A DNA stretch of 61,967 nucleotides, taken from Candidatus Omnitrophota bacterium. GTDB taxonomy: Bacteria > Omnitrophota > Gorgyraeia > Gorgyraeales > Gorgyraeaceae. The notes beneath the pieces were generated by a model. The model was not told the DNA's origin and ran no database searches. It saw only the letters and a program-made list of their open reading frames with translations. Position 1 is the first letter of the stretch, and every line of letters begins with the position of its first letter. The stretch is taken from the NCBI GenBank assembly GCA_018819285.1, contig JAHJQM010000020.1, positions 1 through 61,967 of the forward strand, read 5' to 3'. The translations under genes were made by a program, and so were the position numbers. Positions 2 to 52,392 of this stretch are shown in pieces.

Positions 2-949
2 ATAAAAAACAATCTTGGAAATATCGCAAAGACAGTCAAAATATCTTCCCATGATTATAAAAATGTTTTTTACGCCGGCCGATCAAAAAGAAATGTCCCT
101 ATATACCTGGATAAAAAACTAAAAGACGCTGATTCCATAATAACCATAGGCGTAGTAGAGCCTCATCTTTATGCCGGCTATAGCGGCGGAGTGAAAGTTC
201 TTTCCATAGGCCTGGCCGGAGAAAAAACAATAAATGCAACTCATCATCCAGAGTTTCTGGATCATCCCGGCACAAGGATATGCTCTATAAAAAATAACCC
301 TTTCCAGAATTTTATACAACAAACTGCCTCTATGCTTCCTGTCAAATACTCCATAAATATAGTAAATAACGAATTTGGGAAAATACTAAAAGTATTTGAA
401 GGAAAGCCGGAGCTGTGTTTTAAAAAAGCGGTTGATTATTCCAGAAAAATATTTGAAAAAAAATTAAACAAACGCCCGGATATAATCATATGCGACATAC
501 CTCATTCAAAAGGCGTAAATATATACCAGGCTTCCCGCGCGTTCAACTATGTGACGAACACTAAGAGCCCTGTTATAAAAAATAATTCCCTTATACTTGT
601 AAAAGCTAATCTGGAAGAAGGCTTTGGAAAAGGCCTAGGCGAAAAACGCTTTATGAAAAAAACTCTGGAAATGACAAGTCCTGATAAGCTGATAAATGAA
701 ATTAAAAAAGGCGGGTGCCTTGCTGGAGAACACAGGGCTTATATGGTTGCAAAAGCGCTCAGAAAAGCAGAACTGGGATTTATATCAAAAAATGCTTATC
801 TTTATAAAAATAAAGGCCTTCCGTTTTTATTCTTTGAAGGCCTTAAAGAAGCTAAAAGATATATAAGAAAAACTTTTAAAAAACCTACTATATATTACCT
901 CGATAACGTATTTACAACTATCCTGACTTCCGAAGTCACCGTACGGTGA
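2..949 (+). CDS. LarA-like (lactate racemase / DUF2088 family) protein, 5' end truncated by window start
   Basis: Frame 2 is open from base 2 through the listed ORF; GVVEPHLYAGYSGGVK matches the LarA H-x-x-x-GYSGG region. Stop lies inside the 924-961 palindrome. Confidence 0.75.
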   Translation: MKNNLGNIAKTVKISSHDYKNVFYAGRSKRNVPIYLDKKLKDADSIITIGVVEPHLYAGYSGGVKVLSIGLAGEKTINATHHPEFLDHPGTRICSIKNNPFQNFIQQTASMLPVKYSINIVNNEFGKILKVFEGKPELCFKKAVDYSRKIFEKKLNKRPDIIICDIPHSKGVNIYQASRAFNYVTNTKSPVIKNNSLILVKANLEEGFGKGLGEKRFMKKTLEMTSPDKLINEIKKGGCLAGEHRAYMVAKALRKAELGFISKNAYLYKNKGLPFLFFEGLKEAKRYIRKTFKKPTIYYLDNVFTTILTSEVTVR

Positions 950-961
950 CTTCGGAAGTCA
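924..961. repeat. Perfect 38-bp palindrome with self-complementary arms
   Basis: TGACTTCCGAAGTCACCGTACGGTGACTTCGGAAGTCA is its own reverse complement; each arm also contains GACTTC-C/G-GAAGTC. Confidence 0.95.
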
Positions 962-9481: not shown

Positions 9482-9501
9482 CCTTTCCGGTCCCTTAAAC
9501 T

Positions 9502-9540
9502 TAACTTTATAATTTGTGCCAGGTACAATTTGTAAAGTTA
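9502..9540. repeat. 39-bp palindromic repeat, family A copy 1
   Basis: TAACTTTATAATTTGTGCC-A-GGTACAATTTGTAAAGTTA. Confidence 0.9.
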
Positions 9541-10101
9541 AGAAGCTATTTTTGCACCTAACTTAAATGCCTTTTTTAAATAACCTTGATGCCGAAGTAT
9601 ATCAGCCTTGAATTCTATGCCCTGACAGAAAAGCTCATATTTATAATTAGCGTTTATTGTGACAAAAAAGTTTTTCGTTACCGCTTTGGCATTCTCAAGA
9701 AAATCCTTTCTCGTAGACGCCTCCACGCAAATAAATGCGCTCTGTATCTTTTTATAGCCATTATCCTTTTTCAATATATATTTTGCCCTCCAAGCGCACT
9801 GGAATCTATCTATCATCATTTTTGCTTGCGCGCTCAGGCTCCCGAAAAATATAGGAGAAGCAAATATAACGGCGTCCGCTTCTTTTATTTTTTTGTAAAC
9901 TTCCTGCATGCCGTCTTTTATCAGGCACGAACCATCGTATGTCATTTCTTCGCATTCCTGGCAGGGAACAAATTTCAGTTTATTAAGAACTATCTTTTCT
10001 ATATCAGCGCCTTTACTTTCAGCGCCTTCCAAGACCTTATCCAAAAGAATATCTATGTTGCCACCTATTCTGGGACTGCCATTTATACCTAAAACTTTCA
10101 T
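9538..10101 (-). CDS. Flavodoxin-like NAD(P)H-dependent FMN reductase
   Basis: MKVLGINGSPRIGGNIDILL, ADAVIFASPIFFGSLSAQAKMMIDR. Confidence 0.88.
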   Translation of the reverse strand: MKVLGINGSPRIGGNIDILLDKVLEGAESKGADIEKIVLNKLKFVPCQECEEMTYDGSCLIKDGMQEVYKKIKEADAVIFASPIFFGSLSAQAKMMIDRFQCAWRAKYILKKDNGYKKIQSAFICVEASTRKDFLENAKAVTKNFFVTINANYKYELFCQGIEFKADILRHQGYLKKAFKLGAKIAS

Positions 10102-10113
10102 TTATATGCTCCG

Positions 10114-10152
10114 TAACTTTACAAATGGTGCCAGGCACGAATTGTAAAGTTA
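10114..10152. repeat. 39-bp palindromic repeat, family A copy 2
   Basis: TAACTTTACAAATGGTGCC-A-GGCACGAATTGTAAAGTTA. Confidence 0.92.
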
Positions 10153-25777: not shown

Positions 25778-25823
25778 TACTGCAAAGATTTTTGCGGCGC
25801 AACAAAAATATTAATATAACTCA

Positions 25824-25870
25824 AAAACAACTTTACAAAACCGATAGTGTTACTTTTGTAAAGTTGTTTT
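25824..25870. repeat. Palindrome with 17-bp perfect arms, at the 3' end of the PHP-kinase CDS
   Basis: AAAACAACTTTACAAAA-13 nt-TTTTGTAAAGTTGTTTT; contains the family-A-like core AACTTTACAA. Confidence 0.9.
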
Positions 25871-27358
25871 GGTATTAGACCGTGAAATTAATACCTCCAT
25901 CTCAAGGCTTTGGCCTTTACCTACTTTTATTAAATAAGCTGCAATGCTCAGATTCGCCCTTATCTTAAAAAGATTTACCTCATCCATAAAATCTGGCAGG
26001 ACAATATCCGACTCCTTTATATAGGTATCTATAAAATCCGATTCTATGCAATATTTCGAAATTTCAGGATATGCGTAAAACTGGCTTTCAAATTGGGATA
26101 AAAAATACCCCACGTCAAATGAGCGCGGAAATAAAATGCTGTTCCCGAAATCTATCACAGAAATAAAAAGCGTAGTTATGTCCTGTTGTTTGTCCTGACC
26201 TATTATAATATTTTTAGGATGATAGTCTCCGTGATTCAATATAAACGAATCTCTGGCCTTTAAATACATTTCTTCTTCTTTATCCTTCACAAGATTTATA
26301 ACAGGCTCTATTTTCTTTAAATACGGGTTATTAGTCCTGACAAATGAATTAAGATACGAATCAAATCTTTTGCGCTCTTTTTTGATCGCGCCCTCTATAT
26401 CGCCATATTTTATGTTTTTATTATGAAACCTAGCAAGCCATTGGGCTGCCAGCCTGAAATAATTTAAACCTATAGTTTTATCCACATGCGTCAATAAATC
26501 AAAAAGATTTTTACCCCTCTGTCCGGTTTCAATAATAAGCTTTTCTTTATCATTGACATATATTATATCTGGCACTCTGTATTGTCCTTCTCCAAACCCA
26601 TTTTTGCACAAAAAGGCATTTATATCAGAAGAAGACTTTGCAGCCAGCCATTTTTTATCATCTGTTATATTTTTCATTATAATCCTACTCCTGGACTCGT
26701 CATAGCCTTTAGTACCGATTGTAATTTCAGTTACTATAATATTAGTGCCTGACTTTGGAATTTCCTTGAAGAATGGCCTGCACCTGGATTTTCTAATTTC
26801 TGTTACAAGGTCCTGCATTGTTGTAACCGAATGGTCGAACTGCGTGGGATACGCCCCTGCCATGCCTTCTGTATGAGCGTCGCTTCCACTAGAGGCTGTA
26901 AATTTATATTTATGCCATGCCTTAAGGCCCAAATAATTCTCTTTAGGCGTTTGATTCATGCTGAATATCTCTATTGCGTCCAGTATGGGATTTAATAATT
27001 CCTTTTCGTCAGGAATATTTCCGTTTCTAAAAGGGTGGGCCCAGACTAAACCAGCATCTGGAAAAAATGCCCTTAAATCTTTTAAACTAATTTCTTCTTC
27101 AATCGTCCTCTTCGCTCCGAACACAAGAACATGGCCGATATCTGTTTCCACTTCCTGGCCTGCCATTATCAAAAAATTCTCATCCAGCTCAGCTTCAATC
27201 TTAAGCGCCTTTATCTCGTCTTCCTCCCATAGATAATGATGCTCTGTAATAATAACGCCTTGCAGTTCTTTTCTCTTTACCTGCATGACAAGGCTTGCAG
27301 CGCCTGCCTGGCTGCATCTGGAATATCTTGAAGTATGGCAATGCATTTCTAACAACAT
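25850..27358 (-). CDS. PHP-domain phosphoesterase fused to an aminoglycoside-phosphotransferase-like kinase domain
   Basis: N-terminal EMHCHTSRYSRC, ITEHH, WAHPFR, GSDAH; C-terminal LNHGDYHPKNIII and VIDFGN. Confidence 0.8.
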   Translation of the reverse strand: MLLEMHCHTSRYSRCSQAGAASLVMQVKRKELQGVIITEHHYLWEEDEIKALKIEAELDENFLIMAGQEVETDIGHVLVFGAKRTIEEEISLKDLRAFFPDAGLVWAHPFRNGNIPDEKELLNPILDAIEIFSMNQTPKENYLGLKAWHKYKFTASSGSDAHTEGMAGAYPTQFDHSVTTMQDLVTEIRKSRCRPFFKEIPKSGTNIIVTEITIGTKGYDESRSRIIMKNITDDKKWLAAKSSSDINAFLCKNGFGEGQYRVPDIIYVNDKEKLIIETGQRGKNLFDLLTHVDKTIGLNYFRLAAQWLARFHNKNIKYGDIEGAIKKERKRFDSYLNSFVRTNNPYLKKIEPVINLVKDKEEEMYLKARDSFILNHGDYHPKNIIIGQDKQQDITTLFISVIDFGNSILFPRSFDVGYFLSQFESQFYAYPEISKYCIESDFIDTYIKESDIVLPDFMDEVNLFKIRANLSIAAYLIKVGKGQSLEMEVLISRSNTKTTLQK

Positions 27359-32878: not shown

Positions 32879-32917
32879 TAACTTTACAATTCGTGCCATG
32901 CACGATTTGTAAAGTTA
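32879..32917. repeat. 39-bp palindromic repeat, family A copy 3
   Basis: TAACTTTACAATTCGTGCCATGCACGATTTGTAAAGTTA. Confidence 0.92.
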
Positions 32918-45086: not shown

Positions 45087-46778
45087 TTAAAAAAATAAAA
45101 TACTTCCTGTGTCATGAAGAGGCTCATCGCATAATTCTACTATTTTCTTTCTCCTCTTCTTTATAAAATCTCTTATTAGCTTTCCATCTGGATGATTTTC
45201 TAATGTCCCTACAAAAAATATCATGTCTTTATGGACTCCTGACGCGCCACCTATAAATCCTGTCTTATAACCTGGGAGCTTTATACTGCCAGGCCTTACA
45301 AGCAAAGCGGGTTTGTCCCAAATATCTTTTATGCCTTTATCAGAGGTAATAATATGCTTGTCGTCCACAACTACTACAGAACACTTCACATATCCTTGTT
45401 TAACCCTTATAAATTCTGCTTTTAAATTTTCTATATTTTTTTCAATTTTTCCGGCATAACGGACTATATATTTTCCTATGCTGCACGCATCATAGATAAT
45501 ATCTTTTGGATATTTATACGACCTGATTTTCTCTCCCCTGATACATTCATAACCATTGTCTCTTAAAAGCCTCGCTATCTTTTCTAAACGCGGCTCGTAA
45601 ATAACTTTCTTACCATAAGAAAATAACATCATATCAGGATGGCCCTTTACAGGCTTTGCTAATCTTGGATGCGGCAGCACTTCCGTGACATAGTATCCCA
45701 TGTTCTTCAATCTCATCTTCGCCTTATCAGGCATCCTTGGGTCAATAATGGCGATATCTTTTCTTATGTCTTTAATCCTCACCATTGTCCACCTACGGGG
45801 TGAGCCATCTGGCTCACCCCGTAGGTGAATTGGCACTCCATAATATTTTTCTAAATATTTTTTTTCTAATCCCATGTGCCCTGATACTAGATTAAATAAT
45901 TTTTTAGGCGCATGTATCTCTATTATTTTGCGATTAGGTATTTTTTTAGCGCCTAAAATATCTATTATTTTATTGCGCATCTGTCTGGCGCGCGCCATCT
46001 CTCCAAAACTCGGATGATATGGCCCTGCGAGGATTATCTTCTTTGAGTTCAAACATTCCGAAGGATGAAGCCCTATGCGTATTACTTTCACAGCCCCTTT
46101 TTCAAAAACATCTGAAACGCAGGCAGACCACTCTATCGCATCTTCCAATGATAATGGCTTATACCTGCCTTTTTTAAATAAATCTCCAAGCCCAGTGCCT
46201 TTTAAAACAACCGCAGGATATATGCGGGCTGTTTCCGGCTTTAATTCTAAAAGCTTCTGGGCTGTTGTTATTGATTTCTGAAGCGTATCGCCTGGCAAAC
46301 CAAGCATTACCTGCACCCCTAAATCCAAGCCTGATTTTTTTATAACACCGGCTGCAATTTTAATTGTATTAAAATCCATCACCCTGTTTATTTTTTTTAA
46401 AACCTCTCTATCAAGCGACTGTACGCCCAATTCGACCAAACATCCGCCTCTTTTTTTAAATAGCCTCATGGATTTTTCAGTAACTGCCTCAGGATGGGTA
46501 GATGCGCGGATCCCTGCGATTTTTTTATTCTTCACATAAGGATAAACTGTGTCTAAATATTTTTTCTGCAAATCTTCCGGCAAGAGCGTAAAAGTGCCGC
46601 CAAAAAAAGCAACCTCTACTCTTTCATCTTTAGGGATTGTTTTAAGATTTCTTTCTATAATAGAGTTTATTTCATCTACCCGAGGAGTTCTCAAAGCTCC
46701 TGATATTTTATGCTGATCGCAGTATATGCACCTGTATGGGCACCCCGAGTGAGGGATAAATATAGGTATAATTTTCAT
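45087..46778 (-). CDS. Elp3-like radical SAM protein
   Basis: PHSGCPYRCIYCDQHKISG, FFGGTFT, GVQSLDREVLKKINR; contains the palindrome 45790-45827 in frame. Confidence 0.85.
   Translation of the reverse strand: MKIIPIFIPHSGCPYRCIYCDQHKISGALRTPRVDEINSIIERNLKTIPKDERVEVAFFGGTFTLLPEDLQKKYLDTVYPYVKNKKIAGIRASTHPEAVTEKSMRLFKKRGGCLVELGVQSLDREVLKKINRVMDFNTIKIAAGVIKKSGLDLGVQVMLGLPGDTLQKSITTAQKLLELKPETARIYPAVVLKGTGLGDLFKKGRYKPLSLEDAIEWSACVSDVFEKGAVKVIRIGLHPSECLNSKKIILAGPYHPSFGEMARARQMRNKIIDILGAKKIPNRKIIEIHAPKKLFNLVSGHMGLEKKYLEKYYGVPIHLRGEPDGSPRRWTMVRIKDIRKDIAIIDPRMPDKAKMRLKNMGYYVTEVLPHPRLAKPVKGHPDMMLFSYGKKVIYEPRLEKIARLLRDNGYECIRGEKIRSYKYPKDIIYDACSIGKYIVRYAGKIEKNIENLKAEFIRVKQGYVKCSVVVVDDKHIITSDKGIKDIWDKPALLVRPGSIKLPGYKTGFIGGASGVHKDMIFFVGTLENHPDGKLIRDFIKKRRKKIVELCDEPLHDTGSILFF
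45790..45827. repeat. 38-bp palindrome (18-bp perfect arms, 2-nt centre) inside a CDS
   Basis: CACCTACGGGGTGAGCCA-TC-TGGCTCACCCCGTAGGTG; encodes HLRGEPDGSPRRW in the radical SAM frame. Confidence 0.95.
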
Positions 46779-52346: not shown

Positions 52347-52392
52347 TTACCCGTTCGCCGAACGGGAAACTTCCCGTTCGGCGAACGGGTAA
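52347..52392. repeat. 46-bp palindrome with 22-bp perfect arms, each arm itself palindromic
   Basis: TTACCCGTTCGCCGAACGGGAA-AC-TTCCCGTTCGGCGAACGGGTAA. Confidence 0.97.

Follow-up and report, generated by a model that had tools for sequence, protein, structure and literature searches.

Our analysis supports a model in which REPIN-like elements are spread by a clade of RAYT transposases in a genus of the Omnitrophota, and survive within genes only where they fall in tolerant loops and in open frames, a reading to which we give a probability of about three in four. The palindrome at 45790–45827 of the window (the whole stretch of 61,967 nucleotides analysed here, which belongs to the 1.56-Mb, 69-contig assembly G000) is a member of a dispersed family with a common architecture, is translated in frame in a loop of its host protein, and lies in a tract whose distribution is most simply read as the outcome of recombination between species. 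Palindromes of several unrelated families recurrently occupy the same sites in several genes, and palindromes of this kind are associated with RAYT genes. The features of the window are listed in Table 1.

A translated palindrome in a radical-SAM gene

The sequence-only reading of this DNA had described an 18-bp inverted repeat with a 2-nt centre inside an intact 563-aa ORF, and the coordinates, the arms and the unbroken frame all proved exact: the element reads CACCTACGGGGTGAGCCA / TC / TGGCTCACCCCGTAGGTG, with 18-bp perfect arms. Perfect inverted repeats with arms of at least 18 bp are expected about 2e-5 times per window of such size and composition, and when the peptide HLRGEPDGSPRRW was recoded 20,000 times at random with synonymous codons, no version reached 18/18 matched bases. 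Palindromes are prone to mis-assembly and the genomes compared are metagenome-assembled; nevertheless an assembly artefact, or a chance origin, is hardly credible, given this low expectation, the ORFs that remain open, and the presence of the palindrome at the same place in assemblies obtained independently, for different species, in different studies.

The label 'Elp3-like' initially given to the host gene did not hold. The Elp3 and MnmL/YtqA models score below their cut-offs, and Pfam recognizes Radical_SAM, Radical_SAM_C and DUF6873, with the palindrome-coded residues 318–330 falling between the last two domains. In an AlphaFold model of the host protein (mean pLDDT 75.7, 11 sequences), residues 322–333 form a loop between strands 317–321 and 334–339, with pLDDT <50 at residues 325–330, and the segment encoded by the palindrome is thus predicted to be a low-confidence β-hairpin loop. 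In several Bacteroidales homologues the radical-SAM frame stops at the linker and the match to the query goes on past it, which suggests that the two halves are two separate genes in these bacteria; in G054, a relative in the same class, separate ORFs match the two halves of the host protein. The insertion site therefore appears structurally permissive.

Folded as RNA, the palindrome reaches -44.2 kcal/mol (z = -9.9), and a search of Rfam with it gave no match. A hairpin of this stability, with arms that are perfect in both G000 and G004, could be functional, for example by slowing ribosomes or by protecting or ending transcripts. We consider this very improbable, because no U-run follows the hairpin and because orthologues are without the element, have an unrelated one in its place, or are missing the linker altogether.

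Table 1. Positions of the host gene, its domains and the palindromes within the window
Feature	Position	Strand	Basis or remark
Host gene, radical SAM / DUF6873 fusion protein, 563 aa	45087..46778	-	ORF and Pfam
Radical_SAM PF04055, residues 8–168	46275..46757	-	Pfam
Radical_SAM_C PF16199, residues 181–265	45984..46238	-	Pfam
DUF6873 PF21778, residues 344–561	45096..45749	-	Pfam
38-bp palindromic element	45790..45827	-	codes HLRGEPDGSPRRW, residues 318–330
Mini-hairpin CACC-TACGG-GGTG, REP-like unit 1	45790..45802	+	sequence; unit recurs in genus-wide family
Spacer AGCCA-TC-TGGCT	45803..45814	+	AGCCA common to many genus copies; centre variable
Mini-hairpin CACC-CCGTA-GGTG, REP-like unit 2, inverted copy of unit 1	45815..45827	+	sequence
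46-bp double-hairpin palindrome, second family (CCCGTTCGCCGAACGGG)	52347..52392	.	between two genes
38-bp palindrome, third sequence	924..961	.	overlaps 3' end of ORF 191–949

Orthologues at the insertion site

It had been predicted that the 12–13 residues of the insert would be absent from relatives. Relatives without the insert do have a shorter linker, but the difference is only 4–8 residues (the distance from EK.YLE to IDP is 43 residues in G000 and 35–39 in these relatives), from which it follows that the element took the place of some linker residues. The G004 ortholog carries the same element as G000 with 22-bp arms, the G011 ortholog carries an eroded element equal in length to that of G000, and the G002 ortholog has an unrelated palindrome at the site (CCGTTCGCCGATCGG...). 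A longer insert is present in G005, and the G010 ortholog, at a contig end, reads TGTCCACCTGACAGGTGGAC. About 70 residues of the radical-SAM protein, including the linker, have been lost in G001, G006 and G008 (L017, L015 and L016, respectively).

In a sliding comparison, codons 161–400 of the G004 gene resemble the G000 clade, with an identity of 0.85–0.94, and outside these codons the gene resembles those of its own sisters, G001 and G009. The simplest reading of this comparison is that a tract of about 0.7 kb, including the element, moved by homologous recombination. Such a transfer of the flanks together with the element was found for G000 and G004 in the radical-SAM gene and is no rule in the other genes. 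The deletion of about 70 residues is common to three species that are not sisters (G006, G008 and G001), and could again reflect recombination.

A dispersed palindrome family in the genus

Matches to the pattern CACCYNNNRGGTG-N2-24-CACCYNNNRGGTG number about 80 and are spread over 10 of the 12 genomes of the genus, mostly in G002 (25), G008 (24) and G004 (14). The reversed control pattern has none, and no match was found in the seven genomes from other genera of the family. Across the phylum 24 of 285 genomes have matches, and among the matches listed the AGCCA spacer type occurs only in the genus. In the 75 contexts examined, the two inverted units pair into one hairpin with perfect or nearly perfect arms, and the family is built of a double mini-hairpin, CACC-NNNNN-GGTG, followed by a spacer and an inverted copy, for a total of 38–54 bp. 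The elements end in TGTCC...GGACA and variants; a terminal GTAG or CGTC tetranucleotide is absent from these ends, GTAG being found only internally and in one subtype. In many copies the outermost and central bases vary from one copy to another, yet each copy keeps them complementary; the 13-bp mini-hairpin occurs in both orientations, its two arms having changed in concert. This suggests that the arms are copied as one unit or are re-symmetrised.

As the sequence-only reading had anticipated, the pattern matches of the genus and their contexts place relatives of the element both inside and outside ORFs. Its expectation of further copies in the same genome was met by one related 50-bp copy (C20), the relatives being mainly in sister species, but the 18-mer itself is unique: a search of G000 allowing up to 3 mismatches gave no second copy, and the exact 18-mer recurs in G004 and G002. 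Clear family copies in G000 number only two. Another pattern match of this genome, G000:C14:1771, was left out of the copy count because of 5 mismatches in its arms.

The same reading had also grouped the element with other palindromes of the window, said to be 38 bp long and to lie at gene ends, as one class. The third sequence of Table 1 has this length and position, but the second-family palindrome does not (46 bp, intergenic), and while all have a double-hairpin build, they belong to separate families that are unrelated in sequence. The second family, CCCGTTCG(G/C)CGAACGGG, has a 15-mer core present in 8 of the 12 genus genomes, with most copies in G002. This core also lies in frame within alaS of G000 itself (C24:30171), and a palindrome related to it adjoins a RAYT gene in G005. 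Four imperfect AT-rich palindromes of the window (9500–9542, 10114–10152, 25817–25877 and 32879–32917), all with TAACTTTACAA...TTGTAAAGTTA, resemble the AACAACTTTACA/AACAACTTGACA repeats around another group of Y1_Tnp genes (L093, L098, L101).

In-frame copies and recurrently occupied sites

About 20 of the 75 contexts lie deep in long ORFs, in frame. The host genes, as identified with NCBIfam and Pfam, are dnaE (G002), ileS (G008, with the same insert in G010), alaS (G008), mtnA (G008, G010), fmt (G008, G010, G011), miaB (G004, G008, G009), aroA (G008), dprA (G002) and a lipid-A acyltransferase/ELM1 fusion (G004, G008). The proposal that this type of element can sit in frame within coding sequence is therefore borne out well beyond the window, including in dnaE, ileS, alaS, fmt and miaB. 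We did not accept ORF L122 (173 aa) as a genuine gene. Of the three reading frames of the AGCCA-type element, one or more are closed by a stop codon; intragenic copies of this type use open frames. Inserts that persist in the loops are translated as HLxGEPxGSPxRW or STxxVxQxxHxxGG.

Orthologues from the genus were aligned and palindromic inserts were scored by shuffling. Significant inserts were found at one site per gene, in 7 of 11 species for mtnA, 6/10 for fmt, 6/8 for alaS, 4/10 for ileS, 3/7 for miaB and 5/10 for the lipid-A acyltransferase/ELM1 gene, an occupancy that is not a genome-wide rate, since the six genes were picked for an insert in one species. The acyltransferase site has in addition a sixth, repeat-like insert that is non-significant. 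Sister species thus carry unrelated palindrome families at the same site of each of the six genes, with almost none elsewhere; the mtnA site has about six sequence types and the alaS site five or more. In an indel scan of these genes (about 3,160 fully occupied columns, blocks of at least 6 aa), the only palindromic indel outside the recurrent sites is that of G011 near the alaS N-terminus, which may precede the true start. Two non-palindromic blocks lie outside the recurrent sites, both in the acyltransferase gene, and a further block is near the miaB N-terminus. Among control genes of the window, picked blind to inserts, nadE (G002) and era (G002, G005) have palindromic in-frame inserts and dus has none, so in-frame inserts are common. 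In mtnA of G003 (L226) and miaB of G005 (L229), inserts in the same loops read CHCERSEAIS...DCF, in frame, a peptide that we take to be typical of a repeat occurring in many bacteria.

One way to account for fixed sites is that the insertions date from the ancestor of the genus and were later converted to the type dominant in each genome, by concerted evolution. The fmt gene, where the same CCACCTGTCAGG type is present at the same codon in five species and is partly eroded in G004 and G005, is in keeping with such a history, as is the acyltransferase site, where the G004 and G008 subtypes are those typical of their own genomes. We nevertheless regard it as unlikely: several species are empty at the site, the miaB copy of G004 is not of the G004-dominant subtype, and unrelated families of different lengths share one site, as in mtnA and alaS, which gene conversion within one family cannot produce.

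Alternatively, later families may prefer to insert into, recombine with or replace resident palindromes. A tolerated loop would then serve as a landing pad for newer families, and mobile DNA would rewrite identical codons of essential genes repeatedly. A preference of this kind would explain why each gene has one recurrent site and hardly any palindromic insert outside it, and insertion sequences are known to target REPs (PMC1525189). This alternative is tentative and in our view somewhat doubtful, as we found no element that was clearly nested in, or half replaced by, another and as a loop that is uniquely tolerant could yield the same pattern. It is possible that unique tolerance, landing pads, or inheritance with turnover account for the refilling of the same loops.

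Association with a RAYT clade

Genes of the Y1_Tnp type are present in 12 of the 12 genus genomes. The protein encoded by L094 in G008 is a 213-aa protein with HUH and catalytic-Tyr motifs (THIHL and RYIHLNP), and it scores 32.2 bits with PF01797 against a cut-off of 23. It scores 62 bits in the NCBIfam model REP_Tyr_transpos, whose cut-off of 80 is not reached, and on these sequence comparisons the L094 clade appears to be related to REP_Tyr_transpos but separate from it. Palindromes of the same family lie 10 and 17 bp from the two ends of L094. Relatives of this RAYT are flanked by variants of their own: TGGTCAACCTCCGAGGTTACCCA in G006, CAACCTGCGAGGT-AACCTGCGAGGTTG in G007, CCCTGTACGGACGCG in G014 and ATTCCGTTCGTCGATCGG in G005. 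In G032, the RAYT gene (L345) is flanked by CACCCCGTAGGTG, the mini-hairpin of the element at 45790–45827, that is, the 13-mer of unit 2 (CACC-CCGTA-GGTG).

Among 31 loci of the clade, palindromes are found on both sides in 10 and on one side in 7, and 14 have no adjoining palindrome of the strength searched. The density of palindromes is about 17-fold higher beside RAYT genes, with 31 in about 18 kb vs 7 in the 72 kb further out. The assemblies of G000, G004 and G002 contain no member of the flanked clade, their best sequences having about 33–35% identity, and this is the main weakness of the link with RAYT, all the more as G002 and G004 are rich in copies. Assembly gaps or loss could explain the missing genes. 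Other Y1_Tnp genes, L083, L084 and L091 in G000 and G005, have nearby palindromes of their own (ACTGTGCTCAAGACC... and AAGTTGACACTCTGACA...), which are also dispersed in the sampled stretches of G000.

Proposed mechanism

We propose that the element is a small non-autonomous mobile repeat made of two REP-like mini-hairpins in inverted orientation, owing to which the whole 38–54 bp can also fold as one long hairpin. Copies would be mobilized, the most likely intermediate being single-stranded, by a single-copy Y1/HUH tyrosine transposase, the gene of which is itself flanked by cognate palindromes; for the G008 RAYT, CACCTGCCAGGTG and CACCTACGGGGTG are candidate single-stranded hairpins. Insertions into genes would be purged by selection unless they lie in a tolerant loop, offer an open frame and change the length by a net number divisible by three, and those in tolerant loops would persist and be translated. 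A few loops would be refilled repeatedly as one unrelated palindrome family succeeded another, and alleles with an insert may also have moved between species by homologous recombination. We infer that the RAYT clade carries out the insertion, probably through a single-stranded DNA intermediate, and the inserts may well be neutral. Neither a target-site duplication nor an exact same-strain empty site was seen among the species compared, which are about 70–90% identical in DNA.

Relation to known systems

REP doublets that form hairpins, and their RAYTs, are known (PMC3116915). The Omnitrophota elements resemble REPINs (PMC3116915, PMC2817692) in that an inverted pair of REP-like units forms a hairpin, with tens of dispersed copies, and in that a single-copy Y1/HUH transposase has cognate flanks, the sequence of the repeat tracking the transposase lineage. 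They differ from REPINs by the near absence of a spacer, a length of 38–54 bp, the lack of a GTAG foot and a large intragenic share, and also because no RAYT was found in several genomes that bear copies and because the REP_Tyr_transpos score is below the cut-off.

GTAG and CGTC REPs have been reported inside genes, including uvrA, dnaE and tRNA synthetase genes, and in two species of Xanthomonas recB carries different REPs at nearly the same position (PMC3733652). The Omnitrophota elements likewise lie in frame within housekeeping genes and are comparable to the recB case of double occupancy, but they are untagged, and unrelated families recur in several genes and several species of one genus. 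RPE-4 and RPE-6 of Rickettsia have been identified as CGTC REPs, and no linked transposase was reported for CGTC repeats (PMC3733652). The analogy with Rickettsia palindromic elements drawn in the sequence-only reading is apt for behaviour: RPE-1, RPE-4 and RPE-6 are short palindromic inserts translated in functional proteins (PMC3733652), and in Omnitrophota too the in-frame coding insert is absent from some orthologues. As far as can be compared by description, the Rickettsia elements differ in belonging to another phylum and, for RPE-4 and RPE-6, in being CGTC-tagged and without a linked transposase. In-frame intragenic REPs are thus a kind already known (Rickettsia RPEs; PMC3733652); the elements described here lack both tags. 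What appears new is this variant, its RAYT clade in Omnitrophota and how extensively the same sites are occupied again; in a literature that was partially covered, we found no published description of in-frame coding palindromes in this phylum.

The same or unrelated repeats are found at the same spots in sister species, so mobile repeats appear to settle again and again at the few places where proteins tolerate them. In-frame coding palindromes have been known mainly from Rickettsia and from isolated REP cases; here they are tied to a transposase clade that can be identified, and this in a phylum seemingly without earlier description of them. Such repeats break assemblies, and the inserted peptides may mislead annotation when taken as 'conserved'. 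A natural experiment is offered by mtnA and alaS, in each of which many unrelated inserts occupy one loop in different species; it makes testable both the target choice of REP-type elements and the origin of new peptide segments in essential proteins.
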